DNA from: an uncultured Pseudomonadales bacterium
GTDB lineage: Bacteria > Pseudomonadota > Gammaproteobacteria > Pseudomonadales > Azotimanducaceae
Assembly (NCBI GenBank): GCA_905182095.1
Contig: CAJJAQ010000205.1
Span: 1 to 52,551 of the forward strand
Length of the DNA stretch: 52,551 nt
Direction: 5' to 3'
In this document: positions 10,516 through 33,228 of the stretch, one piece after another
How the letters are laid out: each line of letters begins with the position of its first letter
Position numbering within the stretch: the first letter of the stretch is position 1
Made by a program: the position numbers and the translations under genes
Notes under the pieces: model-generated
Told to the model about the DNA's origin: nothing
Databases searched by the model: none
The model's input: the letters and a program-made list of their open reading frames with translations, nothing else

Positions 10516-11442
10516 CTAGTTTAAACTGGCATGTAGTACTTTCGCCAAGTCAGCCAGTAACTCTGCCCTCGTCGATGTCCCACGCCAACAAAATCCCAAG
10601 GTTCTGTAAGGCAGGTCATCTTTGATAAACGGAATGTAGCGCACATTACCTCGAGCACCATCAGCAGCCTTGTCACTTTCACCCCTGTCATTTGCCGGCA
10701 CTGCAAATTCCGGCATCAATGTTACCCCCATACCTGCGCCGACTAACTGCCTTAAAGTCTCTAAACTCGTGGCACTGTAGCTTTTACTTTCGACACCACG
10801 GTGGGCGTGACAAACCGCCAGCGCCTGGTCGCGCAGACAATGACCGTCTTCCAGCAACAGTACTGATTCGCCCTCCAAATCTCCCGGCGTCACAATTTTG
10901 TATTCAGCTTTTGGATGATTTTCACCAACTGCCAAATAGAAGGGCTCGGCATAAAGTTCAAATTCTTCAATGTTGTCATCGTGCAAATCAGGGATTGGAA
11001 TAGCCAATAAAATCGCATCTAGGTCGCCTCTTTTTAACAGCCTAGTAATGTGCGAGGTCTGACCTTCTGTCAGCTGCAATTGTAAATTAGGAAAGGTCTC
11101 TTTAATTGGGCCAAGAATTTTGGGTAATAAGTAAGGGGCAATAGTTGGAATAATTCCCACTCTAAGCTCACCGCCCAAAGGATCTTGTAATTGCTCCGAG
11201 AGCGCCAACAACGTATTTACTTCAGACAATATGCGTTGTGCCTGAGCGACGATTTGCTCGCCTTCTGGCGACAGCATCACTCGCCTGTTGGTGCGCTCAA
11301 TGAGCATAACCCCCAGAGTCTCTTCCAGCTTTTTCAACTGAGTAGACAACGTCGGCTGGCTGACAAAACACGCCTCAGCCGCACGACCAAAGTGTCGGTG
11401 TTCAGCGACCGCAACCAAGTAGCGTAAGTCTCGAAGATTCAT
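10516..11442 (-). CDS. oxyR: Hydrogen peroxide-sensing LysR-type regulator OxyR
   Basis: 308 residues. An N-terminal winged helix-turn-helix (1-60, 'HFGRAAEACFVSQPTLSTQL') is followed by the sensor domain. The redox motif 'EDGHCLRDQALAVC' puts cysteines at 202 and 211, the same eight-residue spacing as Cys199 and Cys208 of E. coli OxyR, so disulfide switching is expected to be intact. It is convergent with the rubrerythrin operon and follows a cytochrome c5 gene by 24 bp on its own strand. The OxyR-like site at 7819-7833 makes the rubrerythrin operon a likely target. Confidence 0.95.
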   Translation of the reverse strand: MNLRDLRYLVAVAEHRHFGRAAEACFVSQPTLSTQLKKLEETLGVMLIERTNRRVMLSPEGEQIVAQAQRILSEVNTLLALSEQLQDPLGGELRVGIIPTIAPYLLPKILGPIKETFPNLQLQLTEGQTSHITRLLKRGDLDAILLAIPIPDLHDDNIEEFELYAEPFYLAVGENHPKAEYKIVTPGDLEGESVLLLEDGHCLRDQALAVCHAHRGVESKSYSATSLETLRQLVGAGMGVTLMPEFAVPANDRGESDKAADGARGNVRYIPFIKDDLPYRTLGFCWRGTSTRAELLADLAKVLHASLN

Positions 11443-28748: not shown

Positions 28749-28776
28749 AGCCCAACCCTTCGTGTTGGGCTTCTCT
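28749..28776 (+). terminator. Terminator-like hairpin after DUF3604
   Basis: AGCCCAAC and GTTGGGCT form a perfect 8-bp stem with a CCTTCGT loop, followed by a T/C-rich tail (TCTCT). It lies 64 bp after the stop. The 325-bp spacer from here to the first GST-like gene otherwise holds the leader at 28949. Confidence 0.75.
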
Positions 28777-28948
28777 CACCCCCTACACCATTAAGACTTT
28801 CAGCAAGCTTTATTTGAGGCCTGCTTTACCTGCCTAAAGCACACCCCGCATTCGGCTAAACCATTACCATTAAAATATTGCTTAATGTCCGTATTGTTTT
28901 TACAGTCAAGTGGCCGCAAAGAATAAATAACTTTGCTCTACAACAGAT

Positions 28949-29000
28949 CAACAATAAAAAGGAAATAGTGGCTCAACAGAGGCCGTGAAATTTCTATGAG
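28949..29000 (+). promoter_or_regulatory. Conserved leader of GST-like gene 1
   Basis: This contains GAAATAG, then a small hairpin TGGCT-CAACAGA-GGCCG (28969-28985) and the box AAATTTCTA (28988-28996), ending nine bases before the ATG. The same order, loop sequence and box recur before the two following paralogues (30130-30157 and 31266-31293). The 5' part is less like the other two leaders. Confidence 0.65.
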
Positions 29001-29009
29001 CTACTCTAT

Positions 29010-30029
29010 ATGCTTTATATATCCACCTTAGCCGTTACTGGAATTTTAATAACAGCATTAATCTACCGCAAATTTTTTAGTTTGAGGGGGGCGAGAATTC
29101 CCGATGTACTAACTAGCGCATACGCGTTGGTACCGAGATATCATGCTCAAGAGTGGGAGCTCTACAACAACGACTTCGCCGCAAATTCAAGAAAAGTCCG
29201 AGTCTGTTTGGAAGAACTAGGAATATCTTACACGAACCACCCCATAGATATGATGAACCCTAAAACAATCAAGAACATCCCAAAAGATGTTTTGGCGGCA
29301 ATTCCCAACAACCGTCTGCCGATTCTCCGCCATAAAGATCGACTAATCTTCGGTTACAAGCAACAGATCGAATACATGATCGATCAGCCAATATGCGCAC
29401 AACGATTGCTCCCTGCAAAAGAAAATGAAAACCAGCGGCTGGAAAGTTGGCTAGAGCTAACATCACGTTTTGATCAAACGGTGCTCTTACCCAGTCTAGG
29501 GTCTACCGGCAACGCACTCTATGCCATTTCATTGCCGTTATTCAGCGCGCTTATAGCGGAGGCAAATAACCTAATGGTGATAAAAAGTTTTTGGCGGAAC
29601 CGATTTATGCGAAGACCTCTCCTCACTCCAGCTCTACAATTTCGCAATTTCGCCAGCATCACAGCAAACCCAAAATTCATGGACTTATTCGAACAGGCCA
29701 AAGAGTCCATGGAGAATTACCTCGACGAAGCTGAAAACAGCTTGGTCGAACACGGGGAAAGTTGGCTCATCGGAGAAACTTTCTCTCAGATTGACATAGA
29801 AATGATGGTGCTGCTGGATCGCCTTAGGTCACTGACTATGTTGGAAGATCTATTGAATGCACGACGCCCTCAGCTAAGTCTATATTGGCAGAGGTTATCT
29901 GCAAGACACAGTTACAACGCTGCCCTTACAAAATTCGACAGGAGAAATATCAAAGCCGCAACTATGAAAATATTGGCAACAAGGACGACCAATAAAGAAT
30001 TTGATGAACTACTAAGAGTGAATCACTGA
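29010..30029 (+). CDS. Membrane-anchored GST-like protein, paralogue 1 of 3
   Basis: 339 residues. An N-terminal hydrophobic helix (about 2-20, then Arg-Lys) anchors the protein in the inner membrane with the bulk probably cytoplasmic. A thioredoxin-like GST N domain starts at 'EWELYNNDFAANSRKVRVCL' and has 'NNRLPILRHKDRLIFGYKQQIEYM'-type strand-helix with a likely cis-Pro. A helical C domain follows with 'GESWLIGETFSQIDIEMMVLLDRL'. The ES pair that binds the glutathione gamma-Glu in most GSTs is replaced (FGYKQQI), so glutathione use is uncertain. It ends 'FDELLRVNH', shared with both neighbours. Most divergent of the three. Confidence 0.82.
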   Translation: MLYISTLAVTGILITALIYRKFFSLRGARIPDVLTSAYALVPRYHAQEWELYNNDFAANSRKVRVCLEELGISYTNHPIDMMNPKTIKNIPKDVLAAIPNNRLPILRHKDRLIFGYKQQIEYMIDQPICAQRLLPAKENENQRLESWLELTSRFDQTVLLPSLGSTGNALYAISLPLFSALIAEANNLMVIKSFWRNRFMRRPLLTPALQFRNFASITANPKFMDLFEQAKESMENYLDEAENSLVEHGESWLIGETFSQIDIEMMVLLDRLRSLTMLEDLLNARRPQLSLYWQRLSARHSYNAALTKFDRRNIKAATMKILATRTTNKEFDELLRVNH

Positions 30030-30072
30030 CAGGAAATTAATGGAGCTCATCACTGCTTTGCATTATTGGGCA

Positions 30073-30157
30073 AGCGCAAATAAGACTATAGCTTTACCGC
30101 AACATTGATAAATAATAACAACGAAATAGCGGTTCAACAGAAGCTATAAAATTTCTA
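30073..30157 (+). promoter_or_regulatory. Conserved leader of GST-like gene 2
   Basis: GCGCAA, TTTACCGCAA, AATAATAACAACGAAATAG, then hairpin CGGTT-CAACAGA-AGCTA (30130-30146) and AAATTTCTA (30149-30157). It aligns with the leader of paralogue 3 along about 85 bases. Compared with the other copies the loop is invariant, while stem bases change in ways that mostly keep pairing, including G-U. The box is followed by AGGGC, the likely ribosome site. Confidence 0.68.
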
Positions 30158-30170
30158 GGGCAAAAAGACT

Positions 30171-31172
30171 ATGTTGACAATAATCATTCCACTCCTTGCT
30201 GGAATATCACTAACCGTACTCGTCCTAATTCTTTTACAAAAGAGACGTCCAAGAATTCAAGCGATACTTGCCAGTGAAAATGCGACTTCAGCCCTGCCCT
30301 ATACTCACGAATGGGAGCTGTACCACAACGCATTAGCCCCATCGCAAAGAATCTGCGTGGGCCTGGCGGAACTAAACATTCCCTATAAAAGCTATTACAT
30401 CACAATGGAATCTGACTCACGCGATGCAATTCCAACCCACATCATGAAAGAGTTACCCAACCACCAGCTACCAATGCTGCTTCACAATGGCAGGGCCCTT
30501 TACAATTCTCGAAAGCAAATGAAATATCTAATTGCCCAACAAGCAGCAAACGGCCAAATGATACCTGCGGCGGCCGACGAAAAATCGAGGCTTGAGGAAT
30601 GGTTAAGCAAAACGTCTGATTTAGATGATGATGAATTCCAGCTAAAGCCGGGCAACGAAATTTTCACCATTGCTTTACCACTGTGGGCCGCAGCTTTAGA
30701 GCAAGTAAGTTATCGCAGGATGGTAAAGACATTCTTGTTTAATCGTTTTGCACGAAAACCCATTAGAGCTACAGCCATAAGAACACTGAAGTTACTATCG
30801 GTGTTAGAAAACCCAAAATTAAATGATGCATTCGAAACAGCAAAAGAGACGATTGAAGCCCAGCTCGATGAGATCGAATATTCCTTGGTGAAACACAAAG
30901 GACCCTGTATTACTGGAGAGACATTTACTCAAATAGATGTCGAAACAATGGTGTTACTAGACCGACTTAACTTAATGACTATGTTAGAGGACCTCATGAA
31001 TTCTCACCGCCCGAACCTTCGCCTCTACTGGGAAAATTTGCAGCCTAGGCCAAGCTATAAGAAAGCAATCCTAAGCTACAGGAGACCCGACATAAAAGCC
31101 GCCAGGCTAAAAATATTGGCAACCAGAGAAACCAACAAAGGTTTTGACGAAATGCTTAGAGTGAATCACTAA
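30171..31172 (+). CDS. Membrane-anchored GST-like protein, paralogue 2 of 3
   Basis: 333 residues. One N-terminal membrane helix (about 2-22, then RRPR), a GST N domain from 'HEWELYHNALAPSQRICVGL' with 'NHQLPMLLHNGRALYNSRKQ' carrying the likely cis-Pro, and a helical C domain with 'ITGETFTQIDVETMVLLDRL'. The glutathione-binding ES pair reads NS. The tail 'ATRETNKGFDEMLRVNH' is nearly the same in all three copies, suggesting a shared interaction or sorting role. Close relative of paralogue 3 in both protein and leader. The leader makes it likely that each gene has its own 5' end or a processed one. Confidence 0.82.
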   Translation: MLTIIIPLLAGISLTVLVLILLQKRRPRIQAILASENATSALPYTHEWELYHNALAPSQRICVGLAELNIPYKSYYITMESDSRDAIPTHIMKELPNHQLPMLLHNGRALYNSRKQMKYLIAQQAANGQMIPAAADEKSRLEEWLSKTSDLDDDEFQLKPGNEIFTIALPLWAAALEQVSYRRMVKTFLFNRFARKPIRATAIRTLKLLSVLENPKLNDAFETAKETIEAQLDEIEYSLVKHKGPCITGETFTQIDVETMVLLDRLNLMTMLEDLMNSHRPNLRLYWENLQPRPSYKKAILSYRRPDIKAARLKILATRETNKGFDEMLRVNH

Positions 31173-31210
31173 CAGAACATTCATATAGCTAATTCTCAGC
31201 ATCTCAAGGG

Positions 31211-31293
31211 CGCAACCAAACCTGCAGTTTTACTGCAATCCGGACCAATAATAACAATGAAATAGCAGCTCAACAGAAGCTGAAAAATTTCTA
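31211..31293 (+). promoter_or_regulatory. Conserved leader of GST-like gene 3
   Basis: GCGCAA, TTTTACTGCAA, AATAATAACAATGAAATAG, then hairpin CAGCT-CAACAGA-AGCTG (31266-31282, five perfect pairs) and AAATTTCTA (31285-31293), followed by AAGAGC as a possible ribosome site. This is the best-paired of the three hairpins. Confidence 0.68.
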
Positions 31294-31306
31294 AGAGCAC
31301 CAGCAT

Positions 31307-32320
31307 ATGATTGAAATAGTAGCATTAACGGTTATTGGAATATTGCTAGCAGCATTACTGTTATTTGTACGCCTTCAGAGAATAAACCAAGGAATCCGCA
31401 AAATACTTACGGGAGCAAAAGAAGGCGAAACTCTGCCGCATACTCACGAGTGGGAGCTCTATCATAATGAACAAGCCCCATCGCAAAGAATTCGTACTTG
31501 CCTAGCGGAGTTGCAGATTGCCTATAAGAGCCATGAGGTACGCATAGCAACTGACATCAAAAATAGTGTTTCAACCGATTTCATGAAGCGGTTGTCCAAT
31601 TTTCAATTGCCACTGCTGCTTCACAACGGCCGCGCAATCTATAATTCGCGGCAGCAAATCAGCTACCTAGTAGCCCAACATGCACAGGGGGCGAAACTGT
31701 TACCCGCCACTGATGAAGAGAAAACTAGGTTTGAATACTGGCTGAACAAACTATCAGGCCGTGACGAGAACGATTTCTCACTGGCCGGCAGCGCCAGTGG
31801 TAACGAGCTATTTACCATAGCACTGCCGGTTATGGGCGCATTTTTGGAGCACTTAAAGGCCAAGTTGCTGTTAAAAATATTCATACTTAATCCGTTTTTT
31901 CGCCAACCTTTAAACAGCCCGGCCCTGAGAGCGCTTAATACGCTGTCTATACTCGAAAACCCTGTGCTAACCGAAGCGTTTGAAACTGCGAAAGAGATCA
32001 TTGAAGACCAACTTGACGAGGCTGAACGCTCACTGAAAACACACGGCGGCTGCTGGGTAATTGGCGCAACATTCTCGCAAATAGATATCGAAATGATGGT
32101 TCTACTCTACCGACTTAAGCAGGTCACGATGCTAGAAGACCTATTGCAATCTGGTCGCCCTAACCTTGCCATTTACTGGGATAGATTAATCTCTAGACCC
32201 AGCTACAAGATCGCTCTCGTTAACCACACGCGCTCGGCCACCAAAGCAGCGACGAAAAAAGTCCTAGCCACAAGAGCAACCAACCTGGAGTTTGATGAGC
32301 TTTTTAGGGTGAATCACTAA
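31307..32320 (+). CDS. Membrane-anchored GST-like protein, paralogue 3 of 3
   Basis: 337 residues. Membrane helix at about 3-21, GST N domain from 'HEWELYHNEQAPSQRIRTCL' with 'NFQLPLLLHNGRAIYNSRQQ', and a helical C domain containing 'VIGATFSQIDIEMMVLLYRL'. The tail is 'ATRATNLEFDELFRVNH'. The N-domain motif APSQRIR resembles the Ser/Cys-GST start, but the ES pair is NS as in paralogue 2. Three tandem copies with kept protein ends and leaders imply recent duplication and selection for dosage or for divergent substrates. It converges on the soluble GST gene at 32368. Confidence 0.82.
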   Translation: MIEIVALTVIGILLAALLLFVRLQRINQGIRKILTGAKEGETLPHTHEWELYHNEQAPSQRIRTCLAELQIAYKSHEVRIATDIKNSVSTDFMKRLSNFQLPLLLHNGRAIYNSRQQISYLVAQHAQGAKLLPATDEEKTRFEYWLNKLSGRDENDFSLAGSASGNELFTIALPVMGAFLEHLKAKLLLKIFILNPFFRQPLNSPALRALNTLSILENPVLTEAFETAKEIIEDQLDEAERSLKTHGGCWVIGATFSQIDIEMMVLLYRLKQVTMLEDLLQSGRPNLAIYWDRLISRPSYKIALVNHTRSATKAATKKVLATRATNLEFDELFRVNH

Positions 32321-32367: not shown

Positions 32368-33228
32368 CTAAAACTCGGCTATGTGACTCAGGGTTGTACC
32401 CGTAATCAACTGCATCAGTTGCATTGCCGAGGTAATCATTTTCAACGATGTTGACACCTGCACCTCACTGGCAAATTCGGGTTTCAATAACAAGTGCGCG
32501 TACCAGATTGCTACCTTTGGATGCAACTTCGCAAAGGGATACCCGGCCATGGAGAGTCGATGGGTATATATAAACCAAGCGACATCTAACAACGTCACTT
32601 TACCGCCAGACAAATAGCGATTATGGGTTAGCCGTTGCTCGAGCAGTTCGTAGGCCGCAAAAAAGTTCTGCGTCGCTTCATTAGCACGACGATCAGGAAT
32701 ACCTTCAGCGGCATAAGTGCGCCAAAAGCTCAACTCTATATCTTTTCTCGCGTCCGTCTCACCATTAATAATATTCTCAGATTGCTCATATAAACTGAGT
32801 GCCTCTGGACGTTTACGGGCCAAAAATCCAGGCACGACAAAACGCAAGGTCAGCGAGCGCAAATCTAAGTGCAGCTCATTTTCTTCAGCCAAGCCAGCGA
32901 GGATGTCTTCGCGATCATCGTCAGGAATTAACTTCAACTCGGAAAAGGCTTCATCTAGGTAATCTAGTATGTCATTGCTTTCGATATGCACTTCACCGTC
33001 ATGCACCAATACAGGTACTAAACCTCTTGGATTAACACCCAAAAACCAGGGCTTATAGTTGTCTTGCTGGGCCAAATTAAGGGGGTGAGAAATCCAAGAA
33101 ATGCCTTTCAAGTTCAAAAAAATACGTGCTTTTTGCGAGCATGCAGAATCCGAGAAATGTATTAAATGTACACCTTCCCAAGCCAATATTTCTTTAGTTT
33201 GAATTTCCTCAGCAACTAACTGAACCAT
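32368..33228 (-). CDS. Glutathione S-transferase family protein, soluble
   Basis: 286 residues. Thioredoxin-like N domain 'HLIHFSDSACSQKARIFLNL' (about 22-41), followed by 'GLVPVLVHDGEVHIESNDIL' with the cis-Pro and the ES pair that binds glutathione, then a helical C domain with 'GGKVTLLDVAWFIYTHRL'. No membrane helix, so cytoplasmic. Here, unlike the three anchored paralogues beside it, the glutathione-binding residues are intact. It is convergent with paralogue 3 (47 bp between stops). The substrate is unknown. Confidence 0.88.
   Translation of the reverse strand: MVQLVAEEIQTKEILAWEGVHLIHFSDSACSQKARIFLNLKGISWISHPLNLAQQDNYKPWFLGVNPRGLVPVLVHDGEVHIESNDILDYLDEAFSELKLIPDDDREDILAGLAEENELHLDLRSLTLRFVVPGFLARKRPEALSLYEQSENIINGETDARKDIELSFWRTYAAEGIPDRRANEATQNFFAAYELLEQRLTHNRYLSGGKVTLLDVAWFIYTHRLSMAGYPFAKLHPKVAIWYAHLLLKPEFASEVQVSTSLKMITSAMQLMQLITGTTLSHIAEF

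Follow-up and report, generated by a model that had tools for sequence, protein, structure and literature searches.

Why should three tandem genes whose coding sequences have drifted far apart carry nearly the same short block just before their start codons? The question is raised by contig CAJJAQ010000205.1 (GenBank assembly GCA_905182095.1) of an uncultured marine Pseudomonadales bacterium of the Azotimanducaceae, analysed here in full as a window of 52,551 nucleotides (nt). Three consecutive plus-strand genes at 29010-32320 encode membrane-anchored proteins that resemble glutathione S-transferases (GSTs) and are 339, 333 and 337 amino acids long (copies 1, 2 and 3). A first-pass annotation of the DNA had described three tandem genes with an N-terminal helix, an EWELY motif and RVNH ends, and these features were recovered at 29010-30029, 30171-31172 and 31307-32320. 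We tentatively read the locus, with confidence falling just short of an even balance, as a lineage-specific expansion of membrane-tethered pseudo-GSTs with a common, selected cis-element, most likely a hairpin in the 5' untranslated region (5'-UTR) that would tune translation or mRNA stability. The leader that forms most of this element is real and narrow in distribution, being known so far from a few sister species.

Conservation of the leader

The same leader had been claimed to precede each ATG, and the pattern GAAATAG-NN-G-N-TCAACAGA-N-GC-NNNN-AAATTTCTA indeed occurs at 28962, 30123 and 31259. These are the only matches in the window, where 100 dinucleotide shuffles gave a mean of 0, and the whole 2.57-Mb assembly yields only the same three with up to three mismatches allowed. 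Each leader is 35 nt long (28962..28996, 30123..30157 and 31259..31293, all on the plus strand) and is directly adjoined at its 5' side by an A/T-rich 12-mer that is conserved with it (28950..28961, 30111..30122 and 31247..31258, plus strand). The seven leaders known to us, from the window and its relatives, can be aligned gap-free, and in each the distance from leader end to ATG is exactly 13 nt. In pairwise comparison of the window copies, 29-31 of 35 leader bases and 9-11 of the 12-mer's 12 bases are identical. Only 3-7 of the 13 nt between leader and ATG agree (7/13 for copies 1 and 3), and identity over the 58 nt 5' of the 12-mer is 0.61 versus 0.59 in shuffled sequence for two pairs of copies and 0.73 versus 0.60 for copies 1 and 2. 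Because these flanks are near chance while the block is not, about 47 nt, the 12-mer plus the leader, appear to be selectively kept.

Very recent duplication had been named beforehand as an explanation that would undo this reading. It is ruled out as the cause of leader likeness, since fourfold-degenerate sites are only 31-43% identical between window copies and the proteins only 43-52%, yet the leaders agree at 29-31 of 35 positions. The evidence thus supports a leader far better conserved than duplications of this age would permit.

No known Rfam element was recognized, Rfam 15 giving no matches at gathering score in the window and none up to E 5 in 28900-31320. A genome-wide regulatory element was rejected within the limits of the search: a covariance model run on 40 genomes, in 39 of which only 148 first-look candidates were scored, returned below E 0.27 only the genes' own leaders, and these seven matches are the sequences that built the model. 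A consensus scan for sigma-70-like promoters gave no hit at the leaders (three in the region versus 6.5 expected by chance). All seven leader-bearing genes have weak anti-Shine-Dalgarno pairing of -1.9 to -4.8 kcal/mol at about positions -15 to -8. Neither the leader nor the bacterial protein group appears to be described in the open literature searched, which comprised titles, the beginnings of abstracts and some passages, most subscription journals falling outside it.

Protein architecture and the glutathione site

The three window proteins have a common layout of N-terminal hydrophobic stretch, basic residues, GST_N domain, GST_C domain and a tail ending in RVNH. In copy 1 (29010..30029), the Pfam models GST_N_3 (residues 51-112) and GST_C_3 (230-300) both score above cut-off. 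In copy 2 (30171..31172), GST_N_3 is above cut-off (52-126) and GST_C_3 below it; in copy 3 (31307..32320), the best GST_N and GST_C models reach E 5e-4 to 2e-3, below curated cut-offs. The best 19-residue hydrophobic window of copy 1 spans residues 1-19 (29010..29066; Kyte-Doolittle 1.95), with four lysine or arginine residues in the next 15; those of copies 2 and 3 span residues 4-22 (30180..30236; 2.94) and 2-20 (31310..31366; 2.78). The RVNH tails lie at 30015..30026, 31158..31169 and 32306..32317, again on the plus strand. In all eight genes of the close clade to which the copies belong, the most hydrophobic stretch falls within residues 1-22. No MAPEG model (PF01124) appears among Pfam matches up to E 1 for the window proteins, and by that test they are not MAPEG membrane GSTs.

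Pfam and profile matches to solved GSTs both place the proteins in the GST superfamily, with a thioredoxin-like GST_N followed by a helical GST_C. Two structure predictions were poor, with predicted local distance difference test (pLDDT) scores of 43 and 48, a point against the reading of the locus that we prefer. The second of these low-confidence models shows a beta-alpha-beta-alpha-beta-beta-alpha order, and Foldseek with it gave query-normalised template modelling (TM) scores of 0.20-0.28 in the rows listed, a weak agreement with the GST fold.

Glutathione-dependent GSTs carry a catalytic serine, cysteine or tyrosine near the N terminus, and an E-S pair that serves glutathione. Loss of this pair had been noted at first pass and is borne out: the position reads GY in copy 1 and NS in copies 2 and 3, versus E-S in 17 of 17 more distant members. 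Across the clade, the glutamate is replaced by N, D or G in 8/8 genes. The S and C of an S-x-C motif are likewise lost in 8/8 and kept in 17/17 distant members. The serine of the E-S pair is retained in six of the eight, and the cis-proline position is P in all. Judged by residues, none of the eight has the catalytic residues and E-S pair of a glutathione-dependent enzyme; loss of glutathione binding is read from residues alone. A protein group with a GST fold, a membrane tether and lost glutathione-site residues is supported. The genes are not decaying, because dN/dS (the ratio of nonsynonymous to synonymous substitution rates) is 0.24-0.43 in the three closest orthologue pairs.

Distribution of genes and leaders

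The close clade comprises eight genes in 4 of 40 same-genus genomes (three in G000, two each in G005 and G017, and one in G060, where a contig also ends in a distant fragment of 29% identity). Protein searches matched 17 of the 40 at E 1e-8 or below, and 13 same-genus genomes besides the four carry 14 distant members. Family-wide, 22 of 206 genomes have a protein match at E 1e-15 or below, and the five that this adds are all distant. The 17 distant members studied were L010-L021, L025 and L039 from the same genus and L072, L073 and L075 from other genera of the family. At least two loci were confirmed in a wider scan of genome contigs. A viral origin was also considered; viral contigs held no relatives, either in a protein comparison or in a search for the exact leader pattern.

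Distant members have the same domain order as the clade, occur as one or two genes per genome and retain S-L-C-S-[KM]-K and E-S in 17/17. An N-terminal hydrophobic stretch scoring above 1.8 is present in 10 of 17. Each protein was begun at the first ATG of its open frame if that ATG lay close to the beginning of the frame, and in at least four of the remaining seven this ATG falls inside or after the hydrophobic stretch, so the hydropathy figures of L011, L013, L072 and L073 say little. Directly upstream of six of the 13 distant members read (L013, L015, L016, L017, L018 and L020), a gene ends in a similar ..FDYWKD..HFTDGDL.NESFG.. stretch; its product is presumably of extradiol-dioxygenase or glyoxalase type.

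The leader, or a diverged counterpart, stands before seven of the eight clade genes. The pattern itself is present in 3 of 97 genomes, and the diverged leader of G060 was found at the same place by comparison. Homologues lacking the leader had been put forward as a refutation of common control, and this outcome was obtained in part. The G017 orthologue of copy 1 (g17a) is an intact gene without a leader, which counts against the reading we favour, and by eye the loss looks like a deletion between two short GGCCG repeats. Nor did the leader model match any of the 17 distant loci up to E 10.

Probable exchange between copies

Genome G005 carries a copy-1-type leader (33/35 identical to copy 1, 27/35 to copy 2) before a copy-2 orthologue whose protein is 83% identical to copy 2. 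Because a copy-1-type leader fronts a copy-2 orthologue, copy 1 of this genome was probably lost by an exchange inside the leader. The second gene of the same genome (g5b, L053) is 73-92% identical in DNA to copy 3 over its first 80 codons and 51-70% thereafter; several of its 3' windows are nearer copy 2, making it a possible chimera.

In a protein tree, for which 13 of the 17 distant members were used, the clade sits on a long branch (1.01 changes per column, counted on the clade side of the midpoint root). The single G060 protein groups with copies 2 and 3 to the exclusion of copy 1 (88/90), and the G060 leader is the most diverged, with 14-16 of 35 bases identical to the others. Because the protein and its leader are placed so differently, the tree suggests that leaders changed together within the window lineage, whether through exchange or because they co-evolved with a binding factor. 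The G060 placement is not significant (approximately unbiased test, p 0.096).

Does the leader fold as RNA?

A hairpin is readily drawn. The base changes noted at first pass in the second inner-stem pair (columns 9 and 23), G-C, G-U and A-U in copies 1, 2 and 3, were all found, and four inner-stem pairs include a G-U form. An outer 5-bp stem that the earlier annotation had not described, GAAAT/ATTTC, can enclose the inner one, and in the diverged leader of G060 it reads GAAGC/GCTTC. Copy 1 can form this two-part hairpin, and copy 3 retains the two-stem form in about 61 nt of context. With all seven leaders, 91.4% of cells pair, a value reached by 5 of 500 shuffles; four pairs have two-sided changes (10/500), and the covariation score was reached by 2/500. 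Partners slid by 1 to 3 columns score worse.

The leaders do not establish the selection on RNA structure at which the earlier annotation hinted, and several results count against it. Without G060, shuffles equal the six close leaders (pairing reached by 384/500, covariation by 241/500), so that covariance among leaders exceeds chance with seven sequences and not with six: pairing and covariation rise above shuffles only when the single G060 leader is added. Even with seven, the number of further pair types was reached by 52/500 shuffles. When the bases that G060 shares with each of five of the six other leaders were kept and the rest permuted, at least 8 of 10 pairs arose with P 0.18-0.32; keeping the bases shared with copy 3, an energy as low was seen in 71/2000 permutations (P 0.04). 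The pairing and energy of G060 are therefore suggestive only. Energy z-scores of the 33-nt hairpin are mild, -0.6 to -2.5. The minimum-energy fold of the copy 2 leader lacks the outer stem, and in about 61 nt of context it adopts another inner helix; the g5b leader lacks the outer stem at 33 nt, though it is present at 35 nt. Copy 1 in 61-nt context prefers a different, longer hairpin (z -2.64), in which GUGGCUC pairs with bases just before the ATG. The null result with six leaders, the G060 P values, the mild z-scores and the differing folds leave an RNA structure plausible, not proven. The presence of G-U forms and a location beside the start codon make us lean towards RNA.

Comparison with known systems

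The best PDB sequence matches are to GDAP1 (8a4j, 8exz and 7aia), at E 9e-13 with a profile of five of the eight clade proteins and at E 3e-20 with a profile of 12 of the 17 distant members. For the distant members this lead is narrow, the next GST, 4png, standing at 6e-19, and this counts against our account. The likeness lies in the order GST-N, long spacer, GST-C, with 83 versus 92 residues between the matched stretches; the long insertion is thus present in both, the comparison being one of layout and leaving homology of the insert itself aside. Both also have a membrane helix and an altered E-S pair, which is E-A in GDAP1 by profile alignment. They differ in that the clade lost E and often kept S, the reverse of GDAP1, and in that the helix is N-terminal here, whereas that of GDAP1 is reported to follow the GST domains (PMC10104300). 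The C-terminal tail-anchor helix of GDAP1 is absent, and because the helix is at the opposite end we do not file the clade as GDAP1 members.

Structural work on GDAP1 describes a protein without glutathione binding or classical activity and with a fatty-acid ligand (PMC7873046), and an earlier study reports glutathione-conjugating activity of a truncated form (PMC5107993). Since the latter reports activity, the parallel of lost chemistry is disputed. GDAP1 is reported to be nearer bacterial than eukaryotic GSTs (PMC10104300). The first-pass proposal of an undescribed membrane GST family therefore stands as to a membrane-anchored group without glutathione-site residues; 'undescribed' was too strong a word, given that GDAP1, a GST-like protein with a membrane helix and disputed glutathione chemistry, is already known (PMC7873046, PMC10104300 and PMC5107993).

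A second comparison is offered by the top Foldseek row obtained with the poor model and by a weak NCBIfam match, both to stringent starvation protein A (SspA). Copy 1 scores far below the NCBIfam cut-off, at 27 of 314 bits. SspA has a GST fold without enzymatic glutathione chemistry and is soluble.

Interpretation of the locus

Our preferred account begins with a GST-fold protein, tethered to the membrane and with its domains arranged as in GDAP1, whose gene underwent a lineage-specific tandem expansion. The N-terminal helix would anchor each protein in the inner membrane with its GST part in the cytoplasm, as the basic residues after the helix suggest. Because both the S and C of S-x-C and the glutamate of E-S are lost, the clade proteins would most likely be non-catalytic proteins that bind ligands or partners at the membrane. 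Each copy would have its own 47-nt cis-element of A/T-rich 12-mer plus 35-nt leader, 13 nt from the start codon, and purifying selection would maintain the block, a view supported by its near-chance flanks. The block would most likely be a 5'-UTR hairpin whose 3' arm adjoins the weak Shine-Dalgarno region, and it would tune translation or mRNA stability of all copies alike. As to mechanism, a translation-control hairpin probably ranks first and a DNA operator second.

That operator is the main rival; a palindromic DNA operator would look similar to the hairpin. The leader might be a DNA element common to the three genes, either a hyphenated palindrome GAAAT-N23-ATTTC for a dimeric transcription factor or a promoter core, an alternative that we hold possible, if rather doubtful. 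Both half-sites change together in G060, as those of a dimeric operator would, the block includes the 12-mer, which by eye resembles a -10 region, and pairing among the six close leaders is no better than in shuffles. Against these points, only 13 nt separate the block from the ATG, the G-U form in four inner-stem pairs is in keeping with RNA, the promoter scan gave no sigma-70-like hit at the leaders, and no further copies occur in the genome. The leaders and tails might instead be alike through recombination that homogenised tandem copies, without a function of their own. The copy-1-type leader (33/35) before a copy-2 orthologue in G005, the copy-3-like 5' end and partly copy-2-like 3' end of g5b, and the odd leader of G060 despite its grouping with copies 2 and 3 (88/90) would all fit. 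We nevertheless consider this quite unlikely. The flanks of the 47-nt block are near chance for most copies, with exceptions 5' of the block in copies 1 and 2 and in the 7/13 after the leaders of copies 1 and 3, so that conversion tracts would need the same end points each time. Moreover, the spacing to the ATG is fixed, leaders persist in three genomes of different species, and the grouping of G060 in the tree lacks significance (AU p 0.096).

A separate alternative concerns the proteins, which may be catalytically active membrane GSTs whose glutathione site is altered and which work in detoxification or catabolism. They match the GST fold, keep P at the cis-proline position in 8/8 and the E-S serine in 6/8, and are under purifying selection; GDAP1, whose site is also changed, was reported active in the one study noted above (PMC5107993). 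The loss of S-x-C and replacement of E in 8/8 clade genes, versus both kept in 17/17 others, and the long branch to the clade (1.01 changes per column) make such activity unlikely in our view. More speculative, and in our judgement improbable, is that the leader is a new, narrowly distributed 5'-UTR RNA element whose hairpin is bound by the GST-like proteins themselves or by a ligand-sensing partner, co-tuning all copies. If so, divergence of the G060 leader would reflect RNA-protein co-evolution, and copy 1's alternative long hairpin might represent the other state of a switch.

Returning to the hairpin-controlled, membrane-tethered pseudo-GSTs that we favour, the group would matter on two counts. 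GDAP1 is a disease protein without an agreed function, for which a bacterial group with a similar layout, a membrane helix and a lost glutathione site offers a simple comparison. The leader, for its part, clearly illustrates how a short non-coding block can persist while its surroundings change almost completely, and its role is directly testable with reporters.

Neighbouring genes

The gene trio is preceded by a TonB-dependent receptor and a DUF3604 gene and followed by an opposite-strand GST, a zinc dehydrogenase and a methyltransferase. Judged by likeness to the window genes, local order is kept in all three relatives, where a DUF3604 gene precedes the clade genes and the dehydrogenase and methyltransferase follow them; the opposite-strand GST is present in G005 and G017, and G060 has only a trace of it, by eye. 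In the window, this separate GST (32368-33228, minus strand) is convergent with copy 3, has an E-S pair in its sequence and also finds GDAP1 as its best PDB match. Just past the DUF3604 gene, at 28749-28771, is a hairpin that is terminator-like on the minus strand only and may end the upstream unit; the scan that listed it found five terminator-like sites versus 4.8 expected by chance. In L053 of G005, read as reverse complement, the TonB-dependent receptor is split into two adjacent open frames at 10993/10994.

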